Shown piece after piece: positions 16,701-57,045 of a stretch of 64,000 bases of DNA (position 1 is its first letter; every line of letters starts with the position of its first letter). Both the position numbers and the translations under genes were made by a program. Location: assembly GCF_000010665.1 (NCBI RefSeq), contig NC_012796.1, positions 4,550,001 through 4,614,000 of the forward strand, read 5' to 3'. Source of the stretch: Solidesulfovibrio magneticus RS-1 (GTDB lineage Bacteria > Desulfobacterota > Desulfovibrionia > Desulfovibrionales > Desulfovibrionaceae). The notes beneath the pieces are model-generated. The model ran no database searches. It was given only the letters and a program-made list of their open reading frames with translations, and was not told the origin of the DNA.

Positions 16701-17470
16701 GTGAAAAAGGGGTGCAGATCCCTGGACAGCCGGGCCCGGCTTTCGGCGTCCATGGGGGCCCGGCGCAGCCACAGGCCAAGCATCTGGGCCAGGGCCGCGT
16801 TCCAGCCGCCCAGGGCCTCCACGCGCGCGTCGGCAAAGCCGGCCTCGGCGAGCAGGCGCTCCAGGGCATAGGGCGTGTAGCGATAGTGATCGTGGGGCGC
16901 GTCATGGATGGGCCACAAAAAAGGCGTGGTGAAAAAGAGGCTGCCGCCGGGCGCGAGGACGCGGCGGATCTCCTTGAGCACGGGCAGGGGGGCTGGGCAG
17001 TGTTCCAGCACTTCCGTAGCCATGGCGCAATCCACGCTGGCATCGGCCAGGGGAATGGCGACGCCATCCCAGGTCAGATCCGGTTGCCGGCGCTCGGCGT
17101 ACTTGCCCGAGGCGAAATCGAGGCCGATATAGCGTGTGATGTTCGGGTTTCGGGCCAGGATGTGGTCCCGGTAAGGCATCTGGCCGCAGCCGACGTCGAG
17201 CAGGACGCCGCGAAACAAAGCCATGGCCTGATCAAGGCGTTCCAATATCCCTTTGCGGACAAGATAAAGATCAGCAAATTCGGGAGAAAGCTGCGGAGAG
17301 AGAAAGGGGTCGTCTCGGGCGGCGGGCGGAGGCGTCAACGCCTTGCCACCAAGTTTTTCAACCATGCTGAACGCCTGTGGATTGGTTGGAAAATGCGTGA
17401 AGACTTCCAGAGCGGCCTTTGCCTCGCTAACACTCCCAGTAACACCCGTCAACGTGGCTTGCGAGGCCAT
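13763..17470 (-). CDS. Four-domain methyltransferase / GT4 glycosyltransferase / two methyltransferases
   Basis: A 1235-residue protein. Residues about 60-280 are a class I SAM methyltransferase (LLDVGCGQMPYRDHIL, ATEVLEHCP). Residues about 300-650 are a GT4 transferase (QFPVLSQTFILDQI, HGYDGSATF, LSVARFVEKKGL, EGVPVSLIEAQAVGLPVVSS). Residues about 695-900 begin with a Cys-x2-Cys ... Cys-x2-Cys knuckle (YCPICRGRF, LCPTCSS) leading into a second methyltransferase (YCSHVLEHVPDD). Residues about 960-1200 are a third (VACGNASKELRLL, YWNNALHHM). The N-terminal 280 residues are closely related to the C-terminus of the gene at 32371-34371. The homology begins almost at the start codon, so the 5' part of an ancestral gene may have been lost. 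A serine recombinase lies just upstream. Confidence 0.85.
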   Translation of the reverse strand: MASQATLTGVTGSVSEAKAALEVFTHFPTNPQAFSMVEKLGGKALTPPPAARDDPFLSPQLSPEFADLYLVRKGILERLDQAMALFRGVLLDVGCGQMPYRDHILARNPNITRYIGLDFASGKYAERRQPDLTWDGVAIPLADASVDCAMATEVLEHCPAPLPVLKEIRRVLAPGGSLFFTTPFLWPIHDAPHDHYRYTPYALERLLAEAGFADARVEALGGWNAALAQMLGLWLRRAPMDAESRARLSRDLHPFFTELVRTDVVPTDFSKNPMITGLAGTARAAAPRADKAPNAGGPRVIVVTDQFPVLSQTFILDQITGLIDRGVAVEHWSMQRMNEPVRHPSVDAYGLLEATRYITLPDDALRADPRRWTEDFLRANAIAPLDDVVAVQVHFGPNFNKLAPLFAAYPELFTLTSFHGYDGSATFKVKSADIYENLFARSNVITTPSQFMKETLARHGCPVDKIVVHHYGKDTRQFAPVSREKGRKTVTLLSVARFVEKKGLAYALSAFAKAQVGFDAQYRIIGYGPLEGELAELTRSLGLAGKVVFLGQLPGDAVLREMHAADVFVLTSVTAANGDEEGVPVSLIEAQAVGLPVVSSRHAGIPELVVHNETGFLAEEGNVEEIAGYMRALIKNSKLREAFSVNARARILCEFDAATLHDALAELLLRPKTQDACPKAAVSAAKARPAMPNRVYCPICRGRFQQFLPFGKPPRPSALCPTCSSLERHRALWAFLERRTDFFASPGLRLLHFAPEACLEGRFRELFKNGYVTADLLDPRADVQADITNLQFPDASFDAVYCSHVLEHVPDDRKAMRELHRVLAKDGLAIVMVPLRGQVTDEDLSVTAPEERTRRYGQWDHVRYYGLDVVDRLEEAGFAVQAVETAKAFTPDEMALMRLSRDWIFLCRKRGKARQGEGTEPHPEGRAAAQKAQALRAAADHWSTTRAKPRTRWWMHPAILRHLNALVGGQAEDGPWAGLERRMHGLSDGRGFARGLSVACGNASKELRLLQKGIVGTFDLFEISQERLAAGKAEAARQGLADRATFHAGDAFALDLGDRYDLVYWNNALHHMLDAREALFWSKDRLRPGGWLVMDDYVGATRFQWPDAQLEIASRIRGSLPERLLRDPAHPQRSCAVAVTRPPLARMLATDPTEAADSDNILPALMEAFPGAQTLFTGGVVYSLALQDVIANFDDVKDAALLQELLEYDAALAVQGQTLYACAFARKQAASGAPG

Positions 17471-17774
17471 CGTCTCCAGGTCTCCAGCCGTCTTGCCGCC
17501 TGCTGGACTTGCACCTCAGGCCGTCAAGGCCATGTTCTTCGACCTCGCCCACGGCGGGCCAAGGGGTTTCCGCGCGCGGCCAAGGACGGGCTCGAACGGC
17601 CAGCCAAGCGGCTTTCGTCTTCTTGAAAACGGAGATTTGCGAAATGAGCGGCGTGTTCGATCGCGCGGCAAGGGCGTCAAGGCGTGGTTTTTCTCAAAAA
17701 TAGCTCTTGAAATAACATTCTCGATTCTCTACCATTTAAATGAGTTTCAAGAAGAAACAACGGGGGATGGGCTT
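17471..17774. other. Divergent intergenic region upstream of recombinase
   Basis: About 300 bp between the 1235-residue glycan gene and the serine recombinase. The left two thirds are GC-rich and hold only shadow open frames. The right third is AT-rich and holds the recombinase promoter. A 19-codon open frame starting at about 17644 is too short to support. Confidence 0.5.
17707..17735 (+). promoter_or_regulatory. Sigma70-type promoter of the recombinase gene
   Basis: TTGAAA at 17707-17712 (five of six to the -35 consensus) is followed after exactly 17 nt by TACCAT at 17730-17735 (four of six to the -10 consensus). It sits in a short AT-rich patch 40 nt upstream of the recombinase start. There is no competing start codon in between. 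Confidence 0.6.
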
Positions 17775-18332
17775 GTGCTTATCGGCTACGCACGTGTTTC
17801 GACGCTAGACCAGAACCTTGAGTTCCAGCGCGAGGCCTTGATCGAGACGGGTTGTCGGAAGGTTTTTGAAGACAAAGGGAACGGCAGCCGAACCGAGCGG
17901 CCTGGCCTGGCGACAGCGCTGGAAGTGTTGCGCGAGGGGGATACCCTCGTTGTTTGGAAGTTGGATCGCCTCGGCCGGAGCGTCAAACAGCTCATCGATC
18001 TTGTTGATGTGCTGTCCAAGAAGGGCGTGCAATTTAAAAGCCTGACGGATTCCATCGACACGGGCACGCCGTCGGGTCGGTTCTTCTTTCATGTCATGGC
18101 CAGCCTCGCTGAAATGGAGCGCGGACTGATCGTCGAGCGCACCCGGGCCGGACTGGAAGTCGCCCGTCAGCTTGGCCGAAAGGGCGGTAGAAAACCCAAG
18201 ATGACCGTCAGCAAGATCGAGTCGGCCAAGAAGCTCCTCGCCAGCGGCGTGCCGCCCAAGGACGTGGCCAAGAATCTCGGCGTATCCATCCCGACGCTCT
18301 ATCGCTGGGTGCCGGCTTCGTCGAGCGTTTAG
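17775..18332 (+). CDS. Serine site-specific recombinase (resolvase/invertase family)
   Basis: A 185-residue DNA recombinase that would cut and rejoin short DNA sites, by inversion or resolution. The N-terminal catalytic domain has LIGYARVSTLDQN with the nucleophilic Ser, then WKLDRLGRS and the SLAEMERGLIVERTRAGL segment at the start of the long helix. The C-terminus is a helix-turn-helix (LASGVPPKDVAKNLGVSIPTLYRW) as in Hin, Gin and Tn3 resolvases. Length is that of standard resolvases/invertases (180-200). I chose the GTG at 17775, with GGGGG 8-12 nt upstream, because upstream codons do not align with the family. No transposase accompanies it. It sits beside a glycan gene with an abrupt 5' end and just inside a segment bounded by inverted duplicate domains. 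Confidence 0.9.
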   Translation: MLIGYARVSTLDQNLEFQREALIETGCRKVFEDKGNGSRTERPGLATALEVLREGDTLVVWKLDRLGRSVKQLIDLVDVLSKKGVQFKSLTDSIDTGTPSGRFFFHVMASLAEMERGLIVERTRAGLEVARQLGRKGGRKPKMTVSKIESAKKLLASGVPPKDVAKNLGVSIPTLYRWVPASSSV

Positions 18333-18596: not shown

Positions 18597-19598
18597 ATGA
18601 ATCGCAAAGTCATGGTCACAGGCGCAGACGGTTTTATAGGATCGCACTTGGCGGAGGCGCTGCTTCAGGCTGGGTGCGACGTGCGCGCCATGGTGCAGTA
18701 CAATTCGTTTAATAGCTGGGGATGGCTGGACTGCTCGCCCGGGGCGACGTCCGGCGACATGGAGATTCTTGCCGGCGATGTGCGCGACAGCGGCTTTGTG
18801 CGCCGGGCCGTGGCCGGCTGCGAGGTGGTCTTCCATCTGGCGGCGCTCATTTCCATCCCTTTTTCCTATGTTGCTCCGGAAAGTTACATCGATACGAACA
18901 TTCGCGGTTCACTCAACGTTGTGCAGGCCTGTCGGGATCTTGGCGTTTCTCGTCTTGTGCACACCTCCACCAGCGAGGTCTACGGCACCGCGCTTTTTAC
19001 GCCCATCACCGAGGCGCACCCCCTGCAGCCGCAGTCGCCCTATTCGGCGAGCAAGATCGGGGCGGATCAGATCGTGCTGTCCTACCATCATGCCTTTGAG
19101 ACGCCGGTTGCCGTCATGCGTCCATTTAACACCTACGGCCCCCGGCAATCGGCCAGAGCCGTCATTCCCACCATCATCGGCCAGTTGGCCGCGGGGCAGC
19201 GGCGCATCAGGCTCGGCGCCCTGACCCCTACGCGGGATTTCAATTACGTGGCGGACACCGTCCGCGGCTTCATGGCCATGGCCGAGTCCCCCCATGTGCT
19301 GGGCAAGACGGTGAATTTTGGCAGCAATTTTGAGATTTCCATCGCCGACATCGCCGCGCTCATCGGTGAGGTCATGGGCGTTGAATTTGAAATAGCCTGC
19401 GACGCGGAGCGGTTGCGTCCTGCCGGCAGCGAGGTGGATCGGCTGTGGTGCGACCACTCCCTGGCCAGGGAGCTGACCGGCTGGACGCCGGACTTCGCCG
19501 GCCGCGACGGCCTGCGCCGCGGCCTGGCCCTCACGGCCCAGTGGTTCCAGGAAGGCGAAAATTTGCAGCGCTACAAAACGGGAGCCTACAATGTCTAA
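18597..19598 (+). CDS. legB: NAD-dependent 4,6-dehydratase of nucleotide-activated GlcNAc (LegB-like)
   Basis: This extended short-chain dehydrogenase makes a 4-keto-6-deoxy intermediate with retained C5 configuration, the entry step to legionaminic acid or bacillosamine-type sugars. The 333-residue protein has GADGFIGSHL at 9-18, the YNSFNSWGWLD block at 35-45 that is characteristic of LegB, the Thr-Ser-Glu catalytic group at 125-127, and Tyr149/Lys153 (YSASK). I chose ATG 18597; the frame is open further upstream but the fold begins here. It overlaps the following nucleotidyltransferase by 8 nt, the first of a run of about 14 closely spaced genes. Whether its substrate is UDP- or GDP-linked depends on that next gene. 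Confidence 0.88.
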   Translation: MNRKVMVTGADGFIGSHLAEALLQAGCDVRAMVQYNSFNSWGWLDCSPGATSGDMEILAGDVRDSGFVRRAVAGCEVVFHLAALISIPFSYVAPESYIDTNIRGSLNVVQACRDLGVSRLVHTSTSEVYGTALFTPITEAHPLQPQSPYSASKIGADQIVLSYHHAFETPVAVMRPFNTYGPRQSARAVIPTIIGQLAAGQRRIRLGALTPTRDFNYVADTVRGFMAMAESPHVLGKTVNFGSNFEISIADIAALIGEVMGVEFEIACDAERLRPAGSEVDRLWCDHSLARELTGWTPDFAGRDGLRRGLALTAQWFQEGENLQRYKTGAYNV

Positions 19599-20334
19599 AC
19601 ATGCCGTCATCCTGGCGGGTGGTCTCGGCAGCCGGCTGCGACCGTACACCGTGGTGTTGCCCAAGCCCCTGATGCCCATAGGCCCGTATCCCATCCTGGA
19701 AGTGGTCATCCGCCAGCTGGCGGCGGCCGGCTTCACCGTCGTCACCCTGGCCGTGAACCATCAGGCGGAAATCATCAAGGCCTATTGCAACTCCGGCCAA
19801 CGTTGGGGCGTGCACATCAACTATTCCATGGAAAAAAAACCCCTGGGCACCATGGGTCCCCTCAAGCTCCTTGACGATCTGCCGGACAATTTCTTGATCA
19901 TGAACGGCGACGTGCTGACGGATCTGAATTTCGAGACGTTTTATGCCCACCACACGTCGCGCGCCAACGCCTTCACCGTGGCCACATGCCAGCGGGAGGT
20001 GCGCTCCGAGTTCGGCGTGCTGGACTTTGACGAAAGCGACACGCTGCACGGCTTCCGCGAAAAACCCGTGGTGCATTACCATGTCAGCATGGGCATATAC
20101 ATGGCCTCCAGGAAGATCCTGGAGTTCATCCCCGACGACGTCGCCTATGGCTTTGACAACCTGGTGCTGGACATGATGGCCGCCGGCAAGCCCGTGCACG
20201 TCTGCCGGCACAACGGCTATTGGCTGGATATCGGCCGTCCCGACGACTACATGACCGCCATCGACATGTTCGAAGCCAATTCGTCCATGTTCCTCAAGCA
20301 GGAATCCCAAGATGTGGCGCGTGCCGCTGTTTGA
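19591..20334 (+). CDS. Sugar-1-phosphate nucleotidyltransferase (PtmE/RmlA-type)
   Basis: A 247-residue nucleotidyltransferase with the signature LAGGLGSRLRPYT at residues 8-20, KPLMPIG, the IMNGDVLTDLNF metal-binding strand and FREKP. These place it with mannose-1-phosphate guanylyltransferase and glucose-1-phosphate thymidylyltransferase proteins. In Campylobacter legionaminic acid loci a protein of this family (PtmE) charges GlcN-1-phosphate with GMP. The same role is plausible here because the gene lies between legB-like and legC-like genes, overlapping them by 8 and 23 nt. PtmE normally carries extra CBS domains that are absent here. Nucleotide specificity is not readable from the sequence. 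Confidence 0.85.
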   Translation: MSKHAVILAGGLGSRLRPYTVVLPKPLMPIGPYPILEVVIRQLAAAGFTVVTLAVNHQAEIIKAYCNSGQRWGVHINYSMEKKPLGTMGPLKLLDDLPDNFLIMNGDVLTDLNFETFYAHHTSRANAFTVATCQREVRSEFGVLDFDESDTLHGFREKPVVHYHVSMGIYMASRKILEFIPDDVAYGFDNLVLDMMAAGKPVHVCRHNGYWLDIGRPDDYMTAIDMFEANSSMFLKQESQDVARAAV

Positions 20335-21457
20335 TCTGGACTTCGACTCCAGGGAGGAGGACGCCGTGCTGGCCGTGCTGCGCCGGCGCTGGCTGACCAT
20401 GGGCGAGGAAACCCAGGCCTTTGAGCAGGAATTTGCCGCCATGCTCGGCCAGGGGGCGTCCTGCCTGGCCGTCTCCAGCTGCACCGCGGCCCTGCACGCC
20501 GCCATGGACCAGCTTGGCCTGCGGCCGGGCGACGAAGTGGTCGTGCCGGCGTTGACCTTCGTGGCGGACGCCAACGTCGTGGCCATGTGCCGGGCCACGC
20601 CCGTGCTGGCGGACTGCGCCTCGCCGCAAGACTGGAACATGAACGCGCGGACCATCGCCCGGGCCGTGACCTCGCGCACCAAGGCGGTGCTGGTGGTGCA
20701 TTACGCTGGCCAGCCCTGCGACATGGACCCCATCGTCGCCCTTTGCCGGGAACGGGGGCTGGTTTTGGTGGAAGACGCGGCCCACGCCGTGGGGGCCACC
20801 TACCGGGGCCGGCAATGCGGCACTTTCGGCGACATGGCCTGCTTCAGTTTCTTTAGCAACAAGAATCTCTCCTGCGGCGAAGGCGGCATGTTCGTGACGC
20901 GCGACCCGGATCGCCTGGCCCGAGCCCGCCTGTTCCGCTCCCATGGCATGACCTCCCTGACCCTGGATCGGCACAAGGGGCGCGTGGACAGCTATGACGT
21001 GCTGGCGCCGGGGCTCAACTATCGCATGACGGAGATGAGCGCCGCTCTTGGCCGCGTGCAGCTGGCCAAGCTGGAAGGCAACAACGCCCGACGGGAACGG
21101 CTGGCGGCGGCGTACGCAACGCAGCTGGATGCGATGCCCGGCGTCGTCCGTCCCTGGCCGGGCGGCGTGGCCGGCTGCCGGTCCGCCTGCCATATCATGC
21201 CGGTGCTGCTCCCCAAGCGCGTGGATCGCGCCGCGCTCATGGCCGGCCTGCGGGGGCAGGGCATCCAAAGTTCCATTCATTATCCGGATATGCAGCAATT
21301 CACCGCATACAAGGACCTCTTGCGCGGCGCCCCGGTGGCCGCGGAAATTTGCGCGAGAGAGTTGACGCTGCCGTTGTTTCCCTCCATGTCCATGGAGATG
21401 GTCCATGAGGTCGTCGCTCTTTTGCGGGCCCTTCTTCGGCAACAGGAGTGCAAATGA
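20312..21457 (+). CDS. legC: DegT/DnrJ/EryC1 aminotransferase (LegC-like)
   Basis: A 381-residue PLP-dependent aminotransferase expected to convert the 4-keto sugar from the LegB-like enzyme to a 4-amino-4,6-dideoxy sugar. It shows RRWLTMGEET near residues 25-33, SSCTAALHAA near 55-64, VEDAAHAVGA with Asp155, and the Schiff-base Lys184 in FSNKNLSCGEGG. The Asn-Lys-Asn context is typical of 4-aminotransferases of the LegC/PglE/DesI type and differs from the His-Pro-Val-Lys context of pseC in this window, so the two are not recent duplicates. An AGGA ribosome-binding site lies inside the upstream gene, indicating translational coupling. Confidence 0.87.
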   Translation: MWRVPLFDLDFDSREEDAVLAVLRRRWLTMGEETQAFEQEFAAMLGQGASCLAVSSCTAALHAAMDQLGLRPGDEVVVPALTFVADANVVAMCRATPVLADCASPQDWNMNARTIARAVTSRTKAVLVVHYAGQPCDMDPIVALCRERGLVLVEDAAHAVGATYRGRQCGTFGDMACFSFFSNKNLSCGEGGMFVTRDPDRLARARLFRSHGMTSLTLDRHKGRVDSYDVLAPGLNYRMTEMSAALGRVQLAKLEGNNARRERLAAAYATQLDAMPGVVRPWPGGVAGCRSACHIMPVLLPKRVDRAALMAGLRGQGIQSSIHYPDMQQFTAYKDLLRGAPVAAEICARELTLPLFPSMSMEMVHEVVALLRALLRQQECK

Positions 21458-22080
21458 ATATTCTGGCGGTTGGCGCGCACTTTGATGACGTTGAGCTTGG
21501 CTGCAGCGGCTCCCTCATTAATCATGTTCGCAAGGGCGACAACGTAACGGTTTTGGTGCTGACGAACTCAGGATACGCGGATCCAAACGGGGCCGTGGTG
21601 CGCACGGACGACGAAGCCTTGGCCGAGGGTCGGGCTGCCTCCGACATCATGGGCGTCGAACTGCTGACATTGAACCACAGAACTTTCTATCTGCAATTCA
21701 ATGAAGAAACAACGCTACATCTAAACAAATTGATTAATGAACGTAATATCGATACGGTGTATTGCCATTGGATTCATGACCTGCACCGTGACCACCAAGC
21801 TGCTGCGCAAAGCACCATCATGGCATCTCGTCGCGTGCCACGCGTACTCATGTATCGCAGCAATCACTACGACACGCCGCACACCTTTGCTGGAAACGTC
21901 TACTCCGACATCTCCGAGGCCATGGCGACAAAGATCGAGGTCATCAAGGCCCACCGCTCGGAGTTGGAACGGGTGCGCTACAAATGGATCGATTTCTTTA
22001 CCCGCCTCAACGCCAACGACGGGCAAAAAATCGGCGTGGACTACGCGGAATGCTTCGAGATCGTCCGCTACCGCATTTGA
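21454..22080 (+). CDS. PIG-L/LmbE family N-deacetylase
   Basis: A 208-residue zinc-dependent deacetylase of the PIG-L family, which removes N-acetyl groups from GlcNAc-type sugars. Visible motifs are VGAHFDDVELGCSG near residues 6-19 (His and Asp-Asp metal ligands) and HDLHRDHQAAAQ near 110-120 (third ligand). The start is ATG 21454, preceded by AGGAG, and overlaps the stop of the aminotransferase by 4 nt. In this operon it would free the C2 amine of the sugar built by the legB-legC enzymes, so that a different acyl group could be installed. That role is inferred from position. Confidence 0.87.
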   Translation: MNILAVGAHFDDVELGCSGSLINHVRKGDNVTVLVLTNSGYADPNGAVVRTDDEALAEGRAASDIMGVELLTLNHRTFYLQFNEETTLHLNKLINERNIDTVYCHWIHDLHRDHQAAAQSTIMASRRVPRVLMYRSNHYDTPHTFAGNVYSDISEAMATKIEVIKAHRSELERVRYKWIDFFTRLNANDGQKIGVDYAECFEIVRYRI

Positions 22081-22084
22081 CGCC

Positions 22085-22795
22085 ATGATCGTCACCATCC
22101 ACCAGCCCGATTTCCTGCCCTGGCTGGGTTTTTTTGACCGTTGGCAGGCAAGCGGCCTGTTGGTGTTTTTGGACGACGTGCAGTTCCTGCGCCGGGGCTG
22201 GCATCACCGCGACCGCATCAAGACGGCCGCCGGGCCGGCCTGGCTCACCGTGCCGGTCAAAAACAAAGGCCGCTATCTGCAGACCATTCGTGAAGTGGAA
22301 CTGGAGGACGGCCCCTGGCGGCGCAAGCATTTGGCCATGATCCGCGCGGCCTACGCCAAGGCCCCAGGCTTCGGGCAGGTCTTCCCGTTGCTGGAGGCCG
22401 TCTACGCCAAGCGCCACTCCCGGCTTGTGGATCTGAACCTGGAACTGCTGGCCCTGGCCGCCCGGTTACTGGGCATTGCCACCCCCACGACCCTGGCCTC
22501 GGATCACGACTTGCCGGGCCGTGAAGGTCCGGACTGCACGGGCACGCTGCGCCTGGTGCGCCTGTGTCAAATTTATGGCGCACGCGGCTACCTCACGGGC
22601 AGCGGCTCGCGCGGCTACCTTGACGAAGCACTCTTTCTGCAGCATGGCATCCGCGTGGAATGGCAGGAATTCGTCCATCCCGTGCACCCCCAATTGCACG
22701 GCGGATTCGCGGCGAATCTGTCGGTGCTGGACTGGCTGATGCTGCGCCCGGCCCAGTCGCCTTTCATGCCTGTGCCGCCTCGGGACGCGGCATGA
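22085..22795 (+). CDS. WbqC-like family protein
   Basis: A 236-residue protein of the WbqC family, recognised by the N-terminus (IHQPDFLPWLGFFDRW), the following FLDDVQF and WHHRDRIKT blocks, and the LTGSGSRGYLDEALF segment near residue 175. Members occur in O-antigen and amino-sugar clusters and are thought to act on nucleotide-linked amino sugars, but I know of no firm reaction to assign. It starts 5 nt after the deacetylase stop and overlaps the next gene by 4 nt. This ties it to the same amino-sugar module, where it could modify an amine exposed by the deacetylase. Confidence 0.82.
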   Translation: MIVTIHQPDFLPWLGFFDRWQASGLLVFLDDVQFLRRGWHHRDRIKTAAGPAWLTVPVKNKGRYLQTIREVELEDGPWRRKHLAMIRAAYAKAPGFGQVFPLLEAVYAKRHSRLVDLNLELLALAARLLGIATPTTLASDHDLPGREGPDCTGTLRLVRLCQIYGARGYLTGSGSRGYLDEALFLQHGIRVEWQEFVHPVHPQLHGGFAANLSVLDWLMLRPAQSPFMPVPPRDAA

Positions 22796-23538
22796 AAGTC
22801 GTCCTCACTCCGTTGTCCTGGGATTCCGAGAAGCTGGGCCTGCCGTGCGCCAGCCTGCGCGGCCCATGGCCGACGCGACCCGAGGCCATGACGGCCGCCG
22901 TTGTCGAGGCGCTGTCCGCCGCCGCGTCGGCGGCGCTGGTTGTCGCCAAGACGCCCGTCGGCATCTGCGACCCGGCGGCGTTGCAGGGGGCGTTGCCCAG
23001 CTGGACGGTGCAGGCGCTGGGAGTCGAGGTGGTGCATGTCCGGCCGCCCGGCGAGCCGACGGCGGACAGCCCGGACGAGACGACGTTTTTTTCCAACGCC
23101 TTGGATCCCACGCCGTTTCTGGAACTGGCATGGGACATGCATTTTAGCCGCTACCATCTGGACGCGGCCATAGGCTCCGCCCGCGCCGTTTCCCTCTGGC
23201 GGGCCTCCATCACCGAGCATTGCCTCGGTTTTGCCCAGGAAGTGGCCGTGGCGAAGCATCATGGCCGGCCGGCCGGCTTGGCTACGTTGCACCTGGAGGC
23301 CGAGGCCGTCCGGCTGCACATCGTGGGCGTGCTGGCCTGGGCCAGGGGACAAGGCGTCGGCCGCAGGCTGCTGGAAGCCGTCATCGCGCGCCATGGCCGC
23401 GCGCGCGCACTGCTGGTTGAGGCTCACGCCGGAAATCGGGCGGCCGCGGCCCTCTACGGAGCCGTGGGCTGCCGGCCGACAAGCCGGCATGACGTGCTGC
23501 ATTTCTGGAACAAACGCGGCTTGAATGGAGACGGATAG
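22792..23538 (+). CDS. GNAT N-acetyltransferase (WecD/RffC-like)
   Basis: A 248-residue protein whose C-terminal 120 residues form a GNAT acyltransferase: VGVLAWARGQGVGRRLLEAVI carries the acetyl-CoA pyrophosphate loop, followed by LVEAHAGNRAAAALYGAVG. The N-terminal half (LTPLSWDSEKLGLP, then FSRYHLD) is arranged like dTDP-fucosamine acetyltransferase WecD, which acetylates the 4-amino group of a 4-amino-4,6-dideoxy sugar. The same role on the LegC-type product is likely. ATG at 22792 overlaps the upstream stop (ATGA). It competes with the formyltransferase 1.3 kb downstream for the role of acylating the new amine. Confidence 0.82.
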   Translation: MKVVLTPLSWDSEKLGLPCASLRGPWPTRPEAMTAAVVEALSAAASAALVVAKTPVGICDPAALQGALPSWTVQALGVEVVHVRPPGEPTADSPDETTFFSNALDPTPFLELAWDMHFSRYHLDAAIGSARAVSLWRASITEHCLGFAQEVAVAKHHGRPAGLATLHLEAEAVRLHIVGVLAWARGQGVGRRLLEAVIARHGRARALLVEAHAGNRAAAALYGAVGCRPTSRHDVLHFWNKRGLNGDG

Positions 23539-23543
23539 TAGCT

Positions 23544-24821
23544 ATGCTGCGCTGTACGCATACCGGCCCTTCCGGCGAACTGCGGGTTGTGTGGGAGACG
23601 CCGCCTTCCGCGGCGATTTTGCAGCATCCCGAGCTGGCGTCGTTTTTGTCCCGTATGGAAACGGTTCCCGGCCTGCGCGCCGGGGCCGAGGGACTCCACG
23701 TCGCCTTCCGCGTGCCGTACCACGCCCTGGTGGACGCCTTCGCGCCGACGCTGCCGCCAGGGGTGGCGGCCTGCCATCGCCACTGCGCCGAGGTTCTGGC
23801 CGGACGGCCGGACGCGCCCAGGACCGAGGACGGGCTGGAAGTCAATTTCCACCAGCATCCCTTCGACACCCCGGACAGGGCCTGGCTGTTCACCTTGCGC
23901 CAGGGCCGGTTCGCGGAATACTTCTTCAACCGGCTGGCCTGGCATCTGGCGCCCACCTACCACATCGTCACGCCGTTCCCCTTGCACGTGGACCTGGAGT
24001 CCGCCAGCACCTGCAACATGAACTGCCCCATGTGCTACCGCGATATGCTCCCCGACGCCGGGCAAATGGATTTCGACCTGTTTTGCCGCCTCATCGACGA
24101 GTGCGCCGCCAGCGACCTGTATTCCGTGCGCCTTTCCTGGCGCGGCGAGACCCTGACCCACCCGCGCATCACGGAAATGATCGCCTACGCCGCCGCGCGC
24201 ATCCCCAACGTCTCGTTTCTCACCAACGCCTTTTACCTGGACGAGCGCATCTGCGCCTGCCTTGTGGAGAACCGGGTTAGCTACGTGGCCGTGTCCTTCG
24301 ACGGTATCGGGCAGGTGTACGAAACCATCCGGGCCCCGGCCAAGTTCCAGGAAAGCATGGATCGTTTGCGGATGCTGCGCCGCCTGCGCCAGGAGGCCGG
24401 TTCCCTGTTGCCGCAGATCCGCACCTGCACCATCTGGCCCGCCGTCCGCCACGATCCCCAGGCCTACCAGCGCGCCATGGGCGAAGTTGCCGACTACATG
24501 GTGAAAAATCCCTACATCAATTTCAAGGGGGCCATGACGCTGAAAGAAGGCTTCGTGTGCCAGTATCCCTGGGAGCGCATCGTGGTGGGCTGGAATGGCG
24601 TGGGCCAGTGCTGCACCGGCTGGAACGCCGGGGACATCGCCCTGGGCGACGCCCGGGCCGTCTCCATCGCCGAGATGTGGCGTTCGCCGCGACAGGAAGA
24701 GGTGCGCCGCATGCACCTCCAGGGTCGGCGTCTGGAGATTCCCTGTTGCCGCGACTGCCGCCACGGCGCGGCGGGCGATCCCGACGCCTCCATTGAAGAT
24801 ATTGTGCAGAGGCGCTGGTGA
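23544..24821 (+). CDS. Radical SAM protein with SPASM-like C-terminus (first of three)
   Basis: A 425-residue enzyme. Residues 1-140 form an extra N-terminal domain without a recognised family. The radical SAM 4Fe-4S motif Cys157-x3-Cys161-x2-Cys164 sits in ESASTCNMNCPMCYRD, followed by RLSWRGETLTHP (Gly-Glu SAM-binding region) and SFDGIGQVYE. Further cysteines near 355-375 (CQYP, QCCTGWN) and at the end (CCRDC) fit a SPASM or twitch domain binding auxiliary clusters. It lies 5 nt after the GNAT gene and overlaps the formyltransferase by 4 nt (GTGA). Radical SAM enzymes in glycan clusters epimerise, deoxygenate or alkylate sugars; the substrate is unknown. Confidence 0.85.
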   Translation: MLRCTHTGPSGELRVVWETPPSAAILQHPELASFLSRMETVPGLRAGAEGLHVAFRVPYHALVDAFAPTLPPGVAACHRHCAEVLAGRPDAPRTEDGLEVNFHQHPFDTPDRAWLFTLRQGRFAEYFFNRLAWHLAPTYHIVTPFPLHVDLESASTCNMNCPMCYRDMLPDAGQMDFDLFCRLIDECAASDLYSVRLSWRGETLTHPRITEMIAYAAARIPNVSFLTNAFYLDERICACLVENRVSYVAVSFDGIGQVYETIRAPAKFQESMDRLRMLRRLRQEAGSLLPQIRTCTIWPAVRHDPQAYQRAMGEVADYMVKNPYINFKGAMTLKEGFVCQYPWERIVVGWNGVGQCCTGWNAGDIALGDARAVSIAEMWRSPRQEEVRRMHLQGRRLEIPCCRDCRHGAAGDPDASIEDIVQRRW

Positions 24822-25447
24822 GCAGCCCGTTGCGCGTGTTGGCGGCCCTGCATTGGGGCCTTGGGGAGCGGCTGCTGGACGCCTTGCTGGGTTGTCCCGG
24901 GCTGCGGCTGTTGGGGGTGGTGTGCCGCGGGCCAGCCCTCCAGCCCGATCCCTACGCCATGGCCGTGCGCCGTCGCGCCCAGCGGGCCGGATTGCCCGTC
25001 TGGGAAGAGGACGAGCAGGACCTGGGCCGGTTGGCCCGCCAGACCGGGGCCGACCTGCTCTGGCTGCACGCCTACATGCGCCGCCTGCCTCCGGAGGTCT
25101 TGGCCGCCGCGCCGCTGGGAGCGCTCAACGTCCACGCTTCCCTGCTGCCCGCCCACCGAGGCCCCGATCCCCTGCATGGGGCGTTGGTCCGCAAGGACAC
25201 CCGCACCGGGCTTACCGCCCATCTGATGGACCAGGGCCTGGACACCGGCCCCATCGTCCATCAGGTCGCTTTCGCGGTGCGCCCCGGCGACACCCGGGAG
25301 ACGCTTTTGGAAAAATGCAAGCAGGCCGCCCGGCCCCTGGTGGAGGAAACCGTCCGCCGGCTGCTGGATCCGGACTTTTCACCGCTTCCCCAGGACGAAG
25401 CCCTGGCCAGCCATGCGCCGCGGCCAGAAAAAAAGGAACAGGCATGA
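24818..25447 (+). CDS. Formyltransferase family protein (likely sugar N-formyltransferase)
   Basis: A 209-residue enzyme with the formyltransferase catalytic set: Asn104 and His106 in NVHASLLPAHRG, and Asp142 in DQGLDTGPI. These are the Asn-His-Asp residues of methionyl-tRNA formyltransferase and of sugar formyltransferases such as VioF and FdtF. It lacks the C-terminal tRNA-binding domain (Fmt is over 300 residues), so a small substrate such as a dTDP-, UDP- or GDP-linked amino sugar fits. Formyl donor would be N10-formyltetrahydrofolate. It begins with GTG overlapping the radical SAM stop and ends in an ATGA overlap with the second radical SAM gene. Confidence 0.85.
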   Translation: MSSPLRVLAALHWGLGERLLDALLGCPGLRLLGVVCRGPALQPDPYAMAVRRRAQRAGLPVWEEDEQDLGRLARQTGADLLWLHAYMRRLPPEVLAAAPLGALNVHASLLPAHRGPDPLHGALVRKDTRTGLTAHLMDQGLDTGPIVHQVAFAVRPGDTRETLLEKCKQAARPLVEETVRRLLDPDFSPLPQDEALASHAPRPEKKEQA

Positions 25448-26481
25448 GACGCTCTGAAACCAAGGTCCAGTTCAGCTGCGAATCGCGTTGGGAATACCTG
25501 TGCAACGAATGGCGCCGGGGCAAGGGCAAGCCCCTGGCCTACCTGGCCAACCGCTACGCCTGGAATTACTGGCCCGCCCGGCGCAAGACGGCGTCCTTTC
25601 CCCTCAATGTGGACATCGAGGCCTCCAGCGTCTGCCAGCTCAAATGCACCCACTGCTTCCGCCAGTGCCTGGACATCGGCGAGAACAGGTTCATGGACAT
25701 GGACCTGTACCGCTCCATCGTGGAGGAATGCGGCCGCCACGGCCTGTTCACCCTCAAGTTCAGCATGCGCGGCGAGCCCCTGCTGCATCCCGAGATCGTG
25801 GAGATGGTTCGCCTGGCCAAGGCCAGCGGCGTCAAGGAGGTCTGGATCAACACCAACGGCGGCCCCGTCACGGAGGAGCTGGCCCGGGGGCTCATGCGGG
25901 CCGGGGTGGATTGGATCACCATGAGCTTCGACGGCCTGGGCGCGCACTACGAAGCCGTGCGCATCCCCCTGCGCTACGAGGAGTCCCTGGAGAAGCTGCG
26001 GACCCTGCGCCGGGTGCGCGACGCCCTCAACGCCAACACCCTGCTCAACGTCCAGGCCATCTGGTCCTCCATCGCCCACGATCCCCAGGCCTACATCTCC
26101 CTCATGAAGAGCATCGTGGACCGCGTGGCCTACAATCCGGACATGCATTTCGACGCCGGCACCCATGTGCCGGATCCGGCCTTTGTCTGCCCCCGGCTCT
26201 GGCAACGCCTGTGCATCACCAGCTCGGGCGCGTATCTGAAATGCCCTTCGGATTTCACCATGGCCGAAGTCCTGGGCAACGCCCGCGACACCGGCGTCAA
26301 GCAGGCCTGGGATCAGCTCCAGGGACGGCAACGGGAACTGCACCTGGCTGGCCGGAGGCTGGAAAGCCCGGTCTGCGCCGCCTGCCACCACGGCGCCCTC
26401 AAGCAGGCGGTGGAGCTGGTGCTCGACGGACAGCCCCACCAAGACTACACCTACGTGCGCCGCCCCAAGGAGCAGCCGTGA
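25444..26481 (+). CDS. Radical SAM protein with SPASM-like C-terminus (second of three)
   Basis: A 345-residue enzyme with the 4Fe-4S motif Cys64-x3-Cys68-x2-Cys71 (EASSVCQLKCTHCFRQC), the FSMRGEPLLHPE SAM-binding strand, ITMSFDGLGAHYEAVR, and C-terminal cysteines (FVCPRL, LKCPSDF, SPVCAACHHG) fitting a SPASM-type auxiliary cluster domain. It resembles the radical SAM protein 1.9 kb upstream along its whole core, so the two are probably ancient paralogues acting on related substrates. It overlaps the formyltransferase by 4 nt (ATGA) and the methyltransferase by 4 nt (GTGA). Reaction unknown. Confidence 0.85.
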   Translation: MRRSETKVQFSCESRWEYLCNEWRRGKGKPLAYLANRYAWNYWPARRKTASFPLNVDIEASSVCQLKCTHCFRQCLDIGENRFMDMDLYRSIVEECGRHGLFTLKFSMRGEPLLHPEIVEMVRLAKASGVKEVWINTNGGPVTEELARGLMRAGVDWITMSFDGLGAHYEAVRIPLRYEESLEKLRTLRRVRDALNANTLLNVQAIWSSIAHDPQAYISLMKSIVDRVAYNPDMHFDAGTHVPDPAFVCPRLWQRLCITSSGAYLKCPSDFTMAEVLGNARDTGVKQAWDQLQGRQRELHLAGRRLESPVCAACHHGALKQAVELVLDGQPHQDYTYVRRPKEQP

Positions 26482-27263
26482 ACGCCCCCAAACCGCATTG
26501 GAAAACCTGCTGCGGCGTGGAGCTGTACAAGGTCGAATACCGCATCAAGGAATGGCTGTACAAGCGCCTGGGCATCGCGCTGCCCAAACTGCGCGAACAG
26601 CAATCCTACTGGGCCTATCGCGGCCAAGCCTATCGCGACGAGATCCTGGCCTCGGGCTACCTGGACCGCGAAGTGTTCTTTCAGGATCTCATCCTCCAAG
26701 AGCTGGAGGCCGTCCCCTTTGCCTCGGCCTTCGAAGCCGGCTGCGGCTTTGGCTGGAACGTAAAGCGCGTCAAGGAGCGCCATCCCCAGGCCTTGATCGG
26801 CGGGCTGGATTTCAGCCTGCCCCAACTGCGCAACATGCAGGGCTACAAGCCCGACGTGCCCATCGCCGCCGCCCAGGCCGACGCTTGCCGCATGCCCTTG
26901 CGCGACGGCGCGTTTGACGTCGGCTTCAGCCTGGGCGTGTTTATGAACATCCACCCCAGCAAGATCATGGACGCCCTGGCCGAGATGGCTCGCGTGTGCC
27001 GCAAGCGCATCATCCATGTGGAATGGTGCGCCAGCCACGCCACCCGGGAATTGGTGGAAAAACGCGCCTTCAAGACCAACATCGTCTCCCACGACTACGA
27101 CGCCCTCTACGCCCGCCTGGGCCTCAAGCCCGCCAAGGTGCTCACCCACCTGGATTTCGGCGAGGCCTTTCGCCGGCACGAACGTGAGGCCGCAGGCCGT
27201 CTGGACCGCTGGGAAGGCTTTGAAGGCCCGGACAAATACACCCTTTACGTCTTCGATCGCTAA
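26478..27263 (+). CDS. Class I SAM-dependent methyltransferase
   Basis: A 261-residue protein with a class I methyltransferase core: FEAGCGFGWNVKRVKE (motif I) near residues 80-95, then GGLDFSLPQLRNM and AQADACRMPLRDGAFDVGFSLG (motifs II to IV). The first 70 residues include two adjacent Cys (KTCCGVE) and an aromatic helical segment. GTG start at 26478 overlaps the preceding radical SAM stop. The gene closes the block of modifying enzymes before the nonulosonic acid synthase, so a sugar O- or N-methylation or methylation of a radical SAM product is plausible. It is distinct from the methyltransferase domains in the large fusion proteins. Confidence 0.83.
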   Translation: MNAPKPHWKTCCGVELYKVEYRIKEWLYKRLGIALPKLREQQSYWAYRGQAYRDEILASGYLDREVFFQDLILQELEAVPFASAFEAGCGFGWNVKRVKERHPQALIGGLDFSLPQLRNMQGYKPDVPIAAAQADACRMPLRDGAFDVGFSLGVFMNIHPSKIMDALAEMARVCRKRIIHVEWCASHATRELVEKRAFKTNIVSHDYDALYARLGLKPAKVLTHLDFGEAFRRHEREAAGRLDRWEGFEGPDKYTLYVFDR

Positions 27264-27281
27264 CCCAGGGAGCACCCGACC

Positions 27282-28280
27282 ATGGACCTGCGCACACGCC
27301 AACGCACCGGCCTGCCCCTGCTGGTGGCGGAAGTGGGATTCAATCACGAAGGCGACCGCGAAACCGCCGCCGCCCTCATCCACGCCGCCGCCCAGGCCGG
27401 GGCCCAGGCCGTCAAGTTCCAGACCTTCCGCGCCGACGACTTGGCCTTGCCCCAGGCGCCGCATTTCGAGCTCATCCGCCAAGGCGAGATGTCCCGGGAG
27501 GACGTCCGGTTCCTGGCGGACCAGGCCCGCGAGGCCGGCATCGCCTTTTTCTCCACCCCCTTTAGCGTGCAGGCCGTGGAGATGTTGGAAGAGGCGGACG
27601 CGCCGGCCTACAAGATCGCCTCCATGGATCTGGCCACGCCCTATTTGCTGGACGCCGTGGCCGCCACGGGAAAGCCGGTGATCCTCTCCACCGGCATGGC
27701 CACCCTGCCGGAAATCGCCGCCGCCGTGGAGCGTCTGCGGCGCCAGGGGGCGGGGGATCTGGGCCTGCTGCATTGCCTGTCCCTGTATCCGGCCCGGGCC
27801 GAGGATTGCCATCTCCAGGTCATGGCGCTGTTGCGGCGGGAATTCGGCTTGCCCACGGGCTGGTCCGACCATTTTCCCGGCGTGGGCGCCTGCCTGGCGG
27901 CCTTCGGGGCGGGAGCCGAGATCATCGAGACCCACTTCACCCTGGACGTCGCCACGCCCGGCGGGGACCACGCCCACTCCGCCGATCCGGCCATGCTGCG
28001 CGGCTTGGTGGAGACCATGGCCCTGCACGCGGCCATGCTGGCCCCGGCCGAGGACTTCTTTGACCGGCGGCCCGACCGGGAGTTCGCTCCCCTGTATCGC
28101 CGGGGCCTGTACGCCGCCCGTGATCTCGCGCCAGGACAGACGCTGACCATGGCCGATCTGCGCTTTTGTCGGCCCCAAAGCGCCATGACGCCCGAAGATC
28201 TTAACGCCGCGCTGGGACGAAAGCTCGCCCGGGCGGTGCCGGCCATGACGGCCCTGACCCCCGAGGATCTGGCGGAGTAG
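27282..28280 (+). CDS. pseI: Nonulosonic acid synthase (NeuB/PseI/SpsE family)
   Basis: A 332-residue enzyme that condenses a 6-deoxy N-acylated hexose with phosphoenolpyruvate to make a nine-carbon acidic sugar. The NeuB barrel shows AEVGFNHEGD near 15-24, AVKFQTF, KIASMDL, CLSLYPA and WSDHFPGVGA. The final 60 residues form a short SAF (antifreeze-like) domain (RRGLYAARDLAPGQTLTMADLRF). The usual Glu-Lys-His motif reads Glu-Thr-His (IIETHFTLD), keeping the metal-binding His. The length is typical (330-350). With pseB, pseC, pseG- and pseH-like genes present, pseudaminic acid synthase is the best reading; legionaminic acid synthase is the alternative. It has its own ribosome-binding site (AGGGAG). 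Confidence 0.85.
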   Translation: MDLRTRQRTGLPLLVAEVGFNHEGDRETAAALIHAAAQAGAQAVKFQTFRADDLALPQAPHFELIRQGEMSREDVRFLADQAREAGIAFFSTPFSVQAVEMLEEADAPAYKIASMDLATPYLLDAVAATGKPVILSTGMATLPEIAAAVERLRRQGAGDLGLLHCLSLYPARAEDCHLQVMALLRREFGLPTGWSDHFPGVGACLAAFGAGAEIIETHFTLDVATPGGDHAHSADPAMLRGLVETMALHAAMLAPAEDFFDRRPDREFAPLYRRGLYAARDLAPGQTLTMADLRFCRPQSAMTPEDLNAALGRKLARAVPAMTALTPEDLAE

Positions 28281-28283
28281 GCC

Positions 28284-28964
28284 ATGCAGACCCTGGTGGT
28301 GATCCAGGCCCGTCTGGCTTCCACCCGTCTGCCAGGCAAGGCGCTGCTGCCCCTGGCCGGGACGCCCATGCTGGTTTTTTTGCTGGAACGATTGCGCGGC
28401 CTGCCGGGCCGGCTCTGTCTGGCCACCACCTGTCGTCCGGAGGATCTGGCCCTGGCGTCCCTGGCCCGCGATTTGGGCGTGGAGGCCGTGCAAGGCGAGG
28501 AAGACGACGTCCTGGCCCGATTCCTGCAATGCCTGGACCGCTTCCCCGCCCAAGCCGTGGCGCGGGTGACGGCCGACAATCCCCTGACCTGCCCCGAACT
28601 GGTGGAGGCCGCCCTCCGGCTGGTCCTGGACGGGGCCGAACATGCCGGCCTTCCCCGGGACTGCCCGGTGGGCCTGGGGGCAGACGCCTTTTGTGCCCAG
28701 GCCTTGCGCCGCATGGCCCTGCAGGCCAGCTCCCCCGACGAGCGCGAACACATCAATCTGCACGCCCTGCGCCATCCTTCGCAATACCGGACTCTGCGGC
28801 CAACCCTGCCCCCTGCGGCGCGCCGGCCCGACGTCCGTCTTACCGTGGACACTCCCGAGGATTTGGATCGGGTGCGGCGATTGGTGGCGCATTGCCCCGC
28901 CGGCACGCCGCCCCTTGGCCCCGAAGAGCTGGTCGCCGCCCATGATCAATGCTTTCCGGGCTGA
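28284..28964 (+). CDS. SpsF-type cytidylyltransferase
   Basis: A 226-residue nucleotidyltransferase of the SpsF/KdsB-like group: IQARLASTRLPGKALLPLAGTPM at the N-terminus, VQGEEDDVLARFLQCLD near 70, RVTADNPLTCPEL near 95, and a terminal DTPEDLDRVRRLV. In Bacillus sps and many nonulosonic acid loci this gene sits between the synthase and the hydrolase and is taken to activate the acid sugar with CMP, in place of NeuA/PseF. The same order is found here. It starts 4 nt after pseI and overlaps the next gene by 23 nt. It is a distant paralogue of the gene at 34415-35260. Confidence 0.83.
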   Translation: MQTLVVIQARLASTRLPGKALLPLAGTPMLVFLLERLRGLPGRLCLATTCRPEDLALASLARDLGVEAVQGEEDDVLARFLQCLDRFPAQAVARVTADNPLTCPELVEAALRLVLDGAEHAGLPRDCPVGLGADAFCAQALRRMALQASSPDEREHINLHALRHPSQYRTLRPTLPPAARRPDVRLTVDTPEDLDRVRRLVAHCPAGTPPLGPEELVAAHDQCFPG

Positions 28965-29907
28965 CATCCCCCGCCTGGGCCGGGTGCTCTTTCGGGTGGA
29001 CGCCGGCAAGGTGGCCGGGCTTTCCTTCGGGCATCTGGAACGCTGCGCCGTGTTGTCCCGCCAGCTGCTGCGCGCCGGGGCGGCGGCGACGACGTTTCTC
29101 ATGCGTCCCCTGCCCGACGGCCTCGCCCGGGCCCGGGCCCTGGGCCTGGAGGTGGCCCTGCCGGAGCTATGGCTTAAGGCCCTGGCCGACGGGGACGTGC
29201 TCATCGTCGATCTGCCCTTCCCGCCCGAGGACCAGGTGATACGGGCGGCCCGCCAGGCCGGCGCCTATCTGGCGCTGTTGGACGACACGGGACGCGACTT
29301 GCTCCCTTGCGATCTGGTGCTCAATTCTTCCGTGCTGGCCGAGCCATCGATGTATCCCAGGGCGAAAAAGACGCTGTTGGGACCGGCCTATTGCATCCTG
29401 GAGGAGCGTTACGCCGCCGCCCGGCATCATGGCTCCGGCGATGCAGGCCTCCCCGTCGTGCTGTTGACGCTCGGCGGTTCCGATCCCACGGGCCTGACCG
29501 TCCGGGTGCTGCGGGCCTTGGGAGCGCTTGGCGGCGCAGCGCCCGCCTGCCGGCTGCAGGTGGTCCTTGGCCCTGGCTTCGGGGAAGCCTCGGCAGTGGA
29601 GCAGGCCAGGGAAAAATTATCCTTGGCCTCACAATTGCATGTATCTCCGGCAGATATGTTGCCCCTGTTCACGGGATGCGACCTGGCGGTCTGCGCCGGC
29701 GGGCGCACCTTGTATGAACTGCGCGCCCTGGGAACCCCGACCCTGGCCCTGGCCAGCGCCCCCCACGAGGCCCGGCAAATTGACGCCTTCTTGCGGCTCG
29801 GGCTGTTGCAGTGCGGCGTGACAAGCTGGTCAGAGGATGCATTTTTACATAAATTGCGGTTGATGCTTTCAAGGCAGACCCGGCGGCCAACAGGCGAGGA
29901 CACATGA
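28942..29907 (+). CDS. pseG: UDP-sugar hydrolase of nonulosonic acid biosynthesis (PseG/SpsG family)
   Basis: A 321-residue GT-B-fold hydrolase that removes UDP from UDP-2,4-diacetamido-2,4,6-trideoxy-altropyranose before the synthase step. The N-terminal strand (LFRVDAGKVAGLSFGHLERC) keeps the Gly-His expected to be the catalytic His of PseG. The C-terminal half has LTLGGSDPTGLTVRVL and CAGGRTLYELRALGTP, the nucleotide-binding loops of the family. Start ATG 28942 lies inside the cytidylyltransferase gene (23-nt overlap), and its stop overlaps the following acetyltransferase (ATGA). Confidence 0.86.
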   Translation: MINAFRADIPRLGRVLFRVDAGKVAGLSFGHLERCAVLSRQLLRAGAAATTFLMRPLPDGLARARALGLEVALPELWLKALADGDVLIVDLPFPPEDQVIRAARQAGAYLALLDDTGRDLLPCDLVLNSSVLAEPSMYPRAKKTLLGPAYCILEERYAAARHHGSGDAGLPVVLLTLGGSDPTGLTVRVLRALGALGGAAPACRLQVVLGPGFGEASAVEQAREKLSLASQLHVSPADMLPLFTGCDLAVCAGGRTLYELRALGTPTLALASAPHEARQIDAFLRLGLLQCGVTSWSEDAFLHKLRLMLSRQTRRPTGEDT

Positions 29908-30482
29908 CACAGACCCTGTGCTTTCTGGAAGGGGCCCGATTGCGGCTGCGGCCAGTGCTTGAGGAAGACTACACCGACGAGTATCTCCGCTGGCTCAACG
30001 ATCCCGAGGTCAATCGCTGGTCCCAGCGACGCGCCTTTCCCTCGGACAGGGAGCAGATGCGACAGTACGCCCAGGCCCTGGCGGCCAGGCCGGGGCAAGG
30101 CTTTGTCCTGGCCATGATCAACAAGGCCGACGGGGTCCACATCGGCAATATTTCCCTGGTGAACATCCAGTTGGTGCATCGCTGCGCGGAGATCGCCATC
30201 CTCATCGGCCGCGACGAGCACCGGGGACAGGGGCTGGGGGGCGAGGCCGTCCATCTGCTGGCCGGACACGCTTTCGCCGCCATGAACATGCATCGCGTCT
30301 TCGCCGGCACCTTCAATCCCGCCTTCGCGCGCTGCGTGGAAAAAATCGGCTGGAAGCGCGAGGGCGTCTTTCGGGAGCGCATCTGGAGCCATGGCCGTTA
30401 TCACGATCAGATCTGGCTGGCCCAGCTGCGCAGCGAACATGCGCCCATCGCGGCGCTGGAACGCCAGGAGGGCTATGCGTAA
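29904..30482 (+). CDS. pseH: GNAT acetyltransferase (PseH-like)
   Basis: A 192-residue RimJ/RimL-like GNAT protein: GARLRLRPVLEEDYTDEYLRWLNDPEV at the start, then AILIGRDEHRGQGLGGEAVHLLAGHAF with the acetyl-CoA loop, and VEKIGWKREGVFRERIWSHGRYHDQIWLA at the C-terminus. PseH is of this type and length (about 180) and acetylates the 4-amino group made by PseC. It overlaps pseG by 4 nt, completing a pseI-cytidylyltransferase-pseG-pseH operon end. SpsD in Bacillus is an equivalent. Because a second GNAT lies in the same region, which enzyme serves which pathway is inferred from neighbours. Confidence 0.8.
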   Translation: MTQTLCFLEGARLRLRPVLEEDYTDEYLRWLNDPEVNRWSQRRAFPSDREQMRQYAQALAARPGQGFVLAMINKADGVHIGNISLVNIQLVHRCAEIAILIGRDEHRGQGLGGEAVHLLAGHAFAAMNMHRVFAGTFNPAFARCVEKIGWKREGVFRERIWSHGRYHDQIWLAQLRSEHAPIAALERQEGYA

Positions 30483-36303: not shown

Positions 36304-36314
36304 GGAGCAATGCA

Positions 36315-55005: not shown

Positions 55006-55260
55006 TTCCTCGACCTCCCCCGGCCAAAGGGCGGTTTTGCTCCAGCCGAGCGATCTTTTCGCGAAGCAGCTCGTTTTCCATGGCCTGCTCGCCGATCTTC
55101 TCCCGGAGCCGGCCGACTTCAGTGAATTCCCTTACCGGTTGCAGCTTGAGACCCGATTCCCGGCCTCCAGGAAAGTGTCGTGCCACTGGGACAGCGTCGC
55201 GGCGGTCATACGCTGGACCGGTCCGGCGGCATGCGCCGGGCCTGGATCAGAGGGCAGGAG
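54985..55260 (-). pseudogene. IS3-family orfA remnant, frameshifted
   Basis: Two pieces of the IS3 orfA product are visible in different frames: TLSQWHDTFLEAG at about 55160-55200, and VGRLREKIGEQAMENELLREKIARLEQN (the leucine-zipper end that normally precedes the frameshift into orfB) at about 55020-55105. A single frameshift separates them. The N-terminal HTH is not recognisable, and the left end of the IS is cut by the IS66 boundary at 55372. Confidence 0.6.
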
Positions 55261-56996: not shown

Positions 56997-57045
56997 GGCC
57001 CGAACAATCTCTCATTATTATTCAATTTAATCAAGGCAATACTGT

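Follow-up and report, generated by a model that had tools for sequence, protein, structure and literature searches.

The locus described here raises the question of which product is made by a gene run that joins sugar-nucleotide enzymes to two radical SAM proteins. It lies in a 64,000-nucleotide stretch of DNA (hereafter the window) from the sulfate-reducing bacterium Solidesulfovibrio magneticus RS-1, whose genome comprises 5.3 Mb on three contigs. An earlier sequence-only reading had described ten amino-sugar genes at 18597-27263; all ten were present on the + strand, and the pathway assignment ended four genes short, one gene before the neuB gene that names the pathway. Judged by its protein families, the complete operon belongs to a pathway for a nonulosonic acid (NulO, a nine-carbon, sialic-acid-like sugar); it is real and conserved, and its set of tailoring genes is unusual. 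In our favored account, its 14 genes probably make and activate an N-formylated, possibly aminoacylated NulO, the sugar or acyl part of which would be oxidized or epimerized by the radical SAM pair. The genes are as follows.

18597..19598, +, legB, NDP-GlcNAc 4,6-dehydratase (TIGR04180, 509 bits, cut-off 475)
19591..20334, +, sugar-1-phosphate nucleotidyltransferase, perhaps guanylyl (PF00483; best NCBIfam match mannose-1-phosphate guanylyltransferase, 135 bits, cut-off 440)
20312..21457, +, DegT/DnrJ/EryC1 sugar aminotransferase (PF01041, 372 bits)
21454..22080, +, PIG-L de-N-acetylase (PF02585; best NCBIfam match BshB1)
22085..22795, +, WbqC-family protein, proposed amine ligase with a BshC-like predicted fold
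22792..23538, +, GNAT acyltransferase 1 (PF00583, weak, 33 bits)
23544..24821, +, rSAM1, radical SAM/twitch enzyme 1 with an extra N-terminal domain (PF04055 and PF13186)
24818..25447, +, formyltransferase (FMT; PF00551, Formyl_trans_N)
25444..26481, +, rSAM2, radical SAM/twitch enzyme 2, paralogue of rSAM1 (PF04055 and PF13186)
26478..27263, +, SAM-dependent methyltransferase (MT; PF08241; best NCBIfam match pseudaminic-acid-associated methylase, 34 bits, cut-off 112)
27282..28280, +, neuB, nonulosonic acid synthase (PF03102, 240 bits, and SAF)
28284..28964, +, CMP-sugar synthetase, SpsF/NeuA-like (CTP_transf_3 cytidylyltransferase; PF02348, 69 bits)
28942..29907, +, PseG/SpsG-like nucleotide-sugar hydrolase, start codon uncertain (TIGR03590, 99 bits, cut-off 153.6)
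29904..30482, +, GNAT acyltransferase 2 (GNAT2), PseH-like (PF13302, 83 bits; PseH, 36 bits, cut-off 93)

The run occupies 18597-30482, with no same-strand intergenic gap of more than 18 nucleotides (nt) from legB to GNAT2. The statement that nearly all of the first ten genes overlap by 4 nt holds for five of their nine junctions; of the other four, two overlap further (by 8 and 23 nt) and two are separated by gaps (4 and 5 nt), as computed with the start codons chosen in this analysis. The sequence-only reading had also stated that the usual legG, legI and legF companions do not follow as a dedicated set. This was wrong: neuB, the cytidylyltransferase, the PseG-like hydrolase and the PseH-like GNAT come at once, directly behind 27263.

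Given that neuB, a CMP-sugar synthetase and a PseG-like hydrolase share the operon, the product would lie beyond a nucleotide-linked HexNAc, and the proposed 4-amino-4,6-dideoxy-HexNAc nucleotide is not simply the outcome. Of the two enzymes on which that proposal was built, the LegB-like dehydratase exceeded its curated cut-off, and its PseB match (58 bits) lay below the cut-off of 408. The aminotransferase, in contrast, fell under the LegC cut-off (TIGR04181, 212 bits against 420) and was closer to PseC (306 bits, cut-off 423.5), being below both. The matches to PseC, PseG, PseH and PseI all remained under their curated cut-offs (306/423.5, 99/153.6, 36/93 and 251/340 bits, respectively). 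No LegG 2-epimerase was found in the operon, the only part of the genome examined for LegG; the gene in its place matches PseG and no Pfam family. Since the aminotransferase, NeuB, the PseG-like protein and GNAT2 are below the NCBIfam cut-offs, neither the label legionaminic nor the label pseudaminic fits, and a plain operon of either type was rejected.

The individual proteins were compared with their relatives for motifs that we take to be characteristic of the NeuB, PseG, formyltransferase and PIG-L families. The NeuB motifs are kept in seven of eight aligned proteins; the exception, in L070, is the other NeuB of that genome and not an orthologue. By sequence, the solved relatives of NeuB are NeuB, PseI and SpsE (1vli). 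The PseG-like hydrolase retains FRVDAG in 5/5 and GH in 6/6 aligned sequences reaching those sites, and the formyltransferase retains N-x-H-x-SLLP and D-T-G in 9/9. The best NCBIfam matches of the putative CMP-sugar synthetase are KdsB-like and below cut-off. A relative of GNAT2 with 61% identity follows rSAM2 in L086 and L088, both short contigs.

The sequence-only reading had proposed a search for these families in the same order, and they proved to be conserved together. The order legB, nucleotidyltransferase, degT, PIG-L, WbqC, GNAT, rSAM1, FMT, rSAM2, MT, neuB occurs in the window and in four other genomes, G145 (L069), G430 (L085), G409 (L125) and G482 (L127), and this repetition makes the stretch more than a chance assembly. 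In G430 the methyltransferase is only a fragment; in G409 the first 13 genes are all there and GNAT2 was not seen; in G482 one extra gene precedes neuB, and the CMP synthetase and pseG were not seen in the stretch. A fifth genome, G370 (L084), keeps the order from WbqC to pseG at 51-79% identity to the window genes, whereas its legB, nucleotidyltransferase, degT and PIG-L genes are 44-54% identical and partly located elsewhere, indicating replacement of the front end by other members of these gene families. The formyltransferase sits between rSAM1 and rSAM2 in all nine loci with a full-length rSAM1. The gene order of L087 is different, a hexapeptide transferase joining the formyltransferase between the two; L090 (3.4 kb, 32% identity) was left out of the locus comparison. 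The ten other same-genus genomes listed all lack a full-length rSAM1 (G498 has a distant relative), and the operon is therefore patchy.

A link of the radical SAM genes, in relatives, to the modification of peptides or cofactors had been named as a finding that would overturn a sugar pathway. What was found is neuB, nearby in every row of the clade with enough flank. When 62 radical SAM rows were placed in a tree, rSAM1, rSAM2 and their single-copy relatives formed a clade of 28 rows (support 100/99). In 22 of these, neuB is no more than 4.5 kb away; the remaining six come from short contigs (4.0-7.1 kb). The neighboring clades are mixed for NeuB. Over the whole tree, 13 changes of the NeuB label were needed, compared with 18.3 in shuffled data (a value as low arose in 4 of 500 shuffles); the label is thus clustered, yet extends beyond a single clade. 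Apart from the window, the tree loci were picked by radical SAM similarity and not by NeuB (L121 excepted), and came from 14 of 34 other genomes of one search and 13 of 24 of another, two more of these 24 being already in the set. L123, L124 and L126 were left out as duplicates of L084, L085 and L086, as were radical SAM rows above an E value of 1e-15 or with fewer than 200 aligned residues.

The same pattern appeared in a second phylum, Omnitrophota, where 21 of 237 genomes gave a radical SAM match at 1e-40, including G593, the genome of L089. At least 15 of the 26 matches lie within 10 kb of NeuB (12 from the NeuB matches listed, for the same number of genomes in the same draw, and 3 seen in loci), with about 0.8 expected. 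The best seven all have NeuB adjoining or one gene off; one of them, in G593, is the L089 sequence of the query alignment. In L275 and L276, genes for PIG-L, a CMP synthetase, a radical SAM protein, WbqC and NeuB fall within 4 kb.

Further radical SAM genes were seen beside NulO genes. L179 carries two of them with WbqC between, and after these come genes for a formyltransferase, a protein resembling asparagine synthase, NeuB, a methyltransferase, a PseG-like protein and a CMP synthetase. A third radical SAM/SPASM gene of the window, at 39135-40070, belongs to a separate clade of five rows, every one 0.06 to about 11 kb from NeuB. Another type (151-162 bits to the profile) occurs in the NulO clusters of L128, L129, L131 and L086, and the L128 and L129 clusters carry three radical SAM kinds. 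The RS-1 genome itself has a second tandem set (L121 8588-12307; C2:2744587-2748306) of CMP synthetase, PIG-L, radical SAM/SPASM and NeuB genes.

Both proteins of the pair have the expected cysteines. In rSAM1, CX3CX2C at 157/161/164 together with C339, C356, C357, C402 and C405 was invariant in 8/8 sequences; in rSAM2, CX3CX2C at 64/68/71 together with C249, C257, C267, C311 and C314 was invariant in 7/7. Candidate ligands of an auxiliary cluster are C339, C356/357, C402 and C405 in rSAM1 and C249, C267, C311 and C314 in rSAM2, and the SPASM Pfam match is above cut-off; from this conservation, we infer that four cysteines would bind one auxiliary cluster in each enzyme. By sequence, the nearest solved structures are BtrN, BlsE and two others for rSAM2, and 8wm2 (AbmM), SkfB and BtrN for rSAM1. 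The likeness to BtrN, a twitch radical SAM dehydrogenase that carries out a two-electron oxidation of a sugar alcohol, includes CX3CX2C and four auxiliary cysteines, compared at the spacing that we take the BtrN ligands to have; the differences are a low sequence identity and the extra N-terminal domain of rSAM1. The sequence-only reading had listed C-methylation among the possible radical reactions. Since the Pfam search of rSAM1 and rSAM2 reported Radical_SAM and SPASM domains alone, with no domain for binding B12, C-methylation of the cobalamin type is not favored. The broader idea of a radical-mediated change on a sugar is sound, and the radical SAM genes stay linked to sugar genes.

The PIG-L protein is nearest BshB1 (TIGR04001, 77.7 bits, below the cut-off of 182.5) and keeps AHxDDxxLG in 7/7 and HRDH in 8/8 aligned sequences. 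The WbqC protein matches its family profile PF08889 with 218 bits (cut-off 21.3), and its predicted structure has a BshC-like fold. Kinship of WbqC with BshC was not supported by sequence comparison: there was no BshC Pfam match, and the hhalign probability of 42 WbqC sequences against four BshC was 0.3-1.5%. No relative was found among solved sequences, and Foldseek returned nothing at E 0.001. The predicted fold, together with the closeness of PIG-L to BshB1, nevertheless suggests that PIG-L, WbqC and the acyltransferases may form a module that would deacetylate, ligate an acid and acylate. The WbqC Pfam family is present in 29 of 148 genomes of the home phylum; no function for it was found in print among open-access literature, judged by title. 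WbqC adjoins PIG-L in L237, L239-L244, L246 and L247 with no NeuB in a 3.6-kb view, a DegT aminotransferase being third in five of these, and WbqC-PIG-L without NeuB is perhaps a separate recurring module.

Given this gene content, with its intact motifs and conserved linkage, the reactions, their order and the exact product are proposed as follows. The nucleotidyltransferase would charge a glucosamine derivative, LegB would convert it to a 4-keto-6-deoxy sugar, and the aminotransferase would give the 4-amino sugar. PIG-L would free the C2 amine, and WbqC (putatively a class-I-ligase-like enzyme), the formyltransferase and the GNATs may add new acyl groups. The PseG-like hydrolase would release the hexose, NeuB would condense it with phosphoenolpyruvate, and the cytidylyltransferase would give the CMP sugar. 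Each of the two radical SAM enzymes would use a 5'-deoxyadenosyl radical to remove hydrogen, either at a carbon of the sugar or at the acyl or aminoacyl group just attached, and the auxiliary [4Fe-4S] cluster would accept the second electron in the manner proposed for BtrN. The end product would be an oxidized or epimerized, N-formylated NulO for a surface glycan. A more specific version, which we offer only tentatively, is a distinct NulO branch across Desulfobacterota and Omnitrophota in which WbqC, as a member of an unrecognized BshC-like ligase family, would couple an amino acid or another acid to the freed sugar amine, after which the twitch radical SAM clade would oxidize or epimerize a carbon of the aminoacyl-sugar.

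The alternative that survives best, although we regard it as rather unlikely, is that genes of two pathways are merely co-located: an ordinary legionaminic- or pseudaminic-like NulO operon would stand beside radical SAM, formyltransferase, PIG-L and WbqC genes whose products build a different sugar, or a substituent, within the same glycan. The large glycan island around the operon, with multi-domain glycosyltransferases upstream and a second CMP synthetase, a Gfo/Idh protein and a DegT aminotransferase downstream, leaves room for such a product, and the WbqC-PIG-L pairs without NeuB in the 3.6-kb view agree with it. Seen from NeuB, moreover, the radical SAM genes are a minority variant. Radical SAM genes of this kind occurred in 9 of 100 NeuB regions surveyed in the home phylum, PIG-L in 10, WbqC in 3 and the formyltransferase in 12, and no pair of partners was significant (radical SAM with formyltransferase, 3/9 vs 9/91, p = 0.07). 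These regions were taken roughly in rank order among the NeuB matches listed, with neighbors merged and NeuB loci already in the set left out; because the latter are rich in radical SAM genes, the figures are biased low. A recount of 108 regions added the window, L069, L072, L073, L077, L082, L121 and L122 and excluded G040 near base 245,000. It placed radical SAM genes of this kind in 16 of the 108, leaving 92 regions without them, and associated them with PIG-L (6/16 vs 9/92, p 0.009), WbqC (4/16 vs 2/92, p 0.004) and the formyltransferase (6/16 vs 9/92, p 0.009). No association with PseG or LegB was found in these 108 regions. Since the added eight include the window, an orthologue and the genome's own second set, this count leans high and the truth lies between the two; the recount leaves the odds of the favored account unchanged. 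Against two separate pathways stand the position of neuB within 4.5 kb in 22 of the 22 clade rows with enough flank, the recurrence of the pattern in a second phylum, and the arrangement of the formyltransferase, methyltransferase and neuB in one run with no gap over 18 nt.

It was also considered that the radical SAM enzymes might modify a peptide or protein, either a surface protein or one resembling a ribosomally synthesized and post-translationally modified peptide (RiPP), which is glycosylated afterwards. The best fold matches of rSAM1 are SkfB and SuiB, SkfB being found by sequence as well, and its N-terminal domain of about 90 residues could be read as a RiPP recognition element (RRE). 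The fold matches listed do not separate peptide from sugar substrates, however. The strand order of this domain in the predicted model, bb-a-bb-aa, is not the bbb-aaa described for the SkfB RRE, and Pfam gave no RRE family or other match for it; the SAM-cluster loop (157-166) and the last 29 residues of the model have a predicted local distance difference test score (pLDDT) below 50. Since the operon, with gaps of at most 18 nt, has no room for a precursor gene (short open reading frames outside it were not searched), and since rSAM2 lacks the N-terminal domain, as does the Omnitrophota copy L089, a peptide substrate is improbable. That the operon makes a low-molecular-weight thiol resembling bacillithiol or mycothiol is scarcely credible, for although PIG-L is nearest BshB1, WbqC has a predicted BshC-like fold and a GNAT adjoins them as we take it to do in mycothiol synthesis (MshB, MshC, MshD), such a product gives no role to the NeuB, CMP synthetase and PseG-like genes, WbqC has 236 residues against about 540 in BshC, and there is no BshA-type step in the operon. 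A bacillithiol operon was rejected, the family search having found no BshC in this genome.

Nonulosonic acids coat flagella, capsules and lipopolysaccharide, and to our knowledge their known diversity is owed to acylation and to the stereochemistry that non-radical enzymes impose. The operon shares with the GDP-linked CMP-legionaminic acid pathway of Campylobacter jejuni (LegB, LegC, LegH, LegG, LegI, LegF) a LegB, a nucleotidyltransferase near the guanylyltransferases, a NeuB-family synthase and a CMP synthetase. Unlike that pathway, it has a PseG-like hydrolase, an aminotransferase nearer PseC and no LegG-type 2-epimerase in the operon; its additional genes encode PIG-L, WbqC, a formyltransferase, a methyltransferase and the radical SAM pair. 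A parallel is offered by B. subtilis, in which the products of the sps genes (SpsM, C, D, G, E, F) make legionaminic acid: an aminotransferase, an acetyltransferase, SpsG, the NeuB-like SpsE and a CMP synthetase work there without LegG (PMC7439481). SpsM, however, is close to CapE/WbjB/PseB, whereas the first enzyme of the window operon is LegB-like, and the part of that report consulted describes no radical SAM enzyme (PMC7439481). N-formylation has a precedent in the 5-N-formyl-legionaminic acid of Halorubrum sp. PV6, whose NulO cluster includes a predicted formyltransferase gene; its LegG is of the NeuC type, and the available portion of the text names no radical SAM protein (PMC6137143).

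The sequence-only reading knew of no described pathway with this combination, and the combination does seem undescribed in the open-access literature searched, where no paper joining NulO (nonulosonic, pseudaminic or flagellin-glycosylation) pathways to radical SAM enzymes was found. Phase-variable genes of Campylobacter fetus include two radical SAM genes (locus tags CFT03427), with no link to pseudaminic acid in the portion of the source consulted. If the favored account is true, the radical SAM step would be a novel means of NulO diversification, and a function could be given to a radical SAM clade linked to neuB in two phyla. The more specific version, if true, would make radical SAM enzymes tailoring enzymes of sialic-acid-like sugars and would give WbqC a function as well. 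Should the BshC-like fold predicted for WbqC stand for amide ligation, it would point to a testable activity for PF08889.

The operon is embedded in further genes of interest. Directly upstream of legB, at 17733-18332, is a resolvase-type serine recombinase, a possible inversion or insertion site. A very long protein encoded at 13763-17470 has apparent methyltransferase and glycosyltransferase parts, judged by reading its sequence. Downstream, 34415-38737 encodes the second CMP synthetase, a Gfo/Idh oxidoreductase, a DegT aminotransferase and a protein of unknown function; relatives of these four genes are consecutive in L084 (120-4428), beside NulO genes. Transposase-like (rve) and phage-type integrase genes lie at 53839-58706, downstream of the glycan island.

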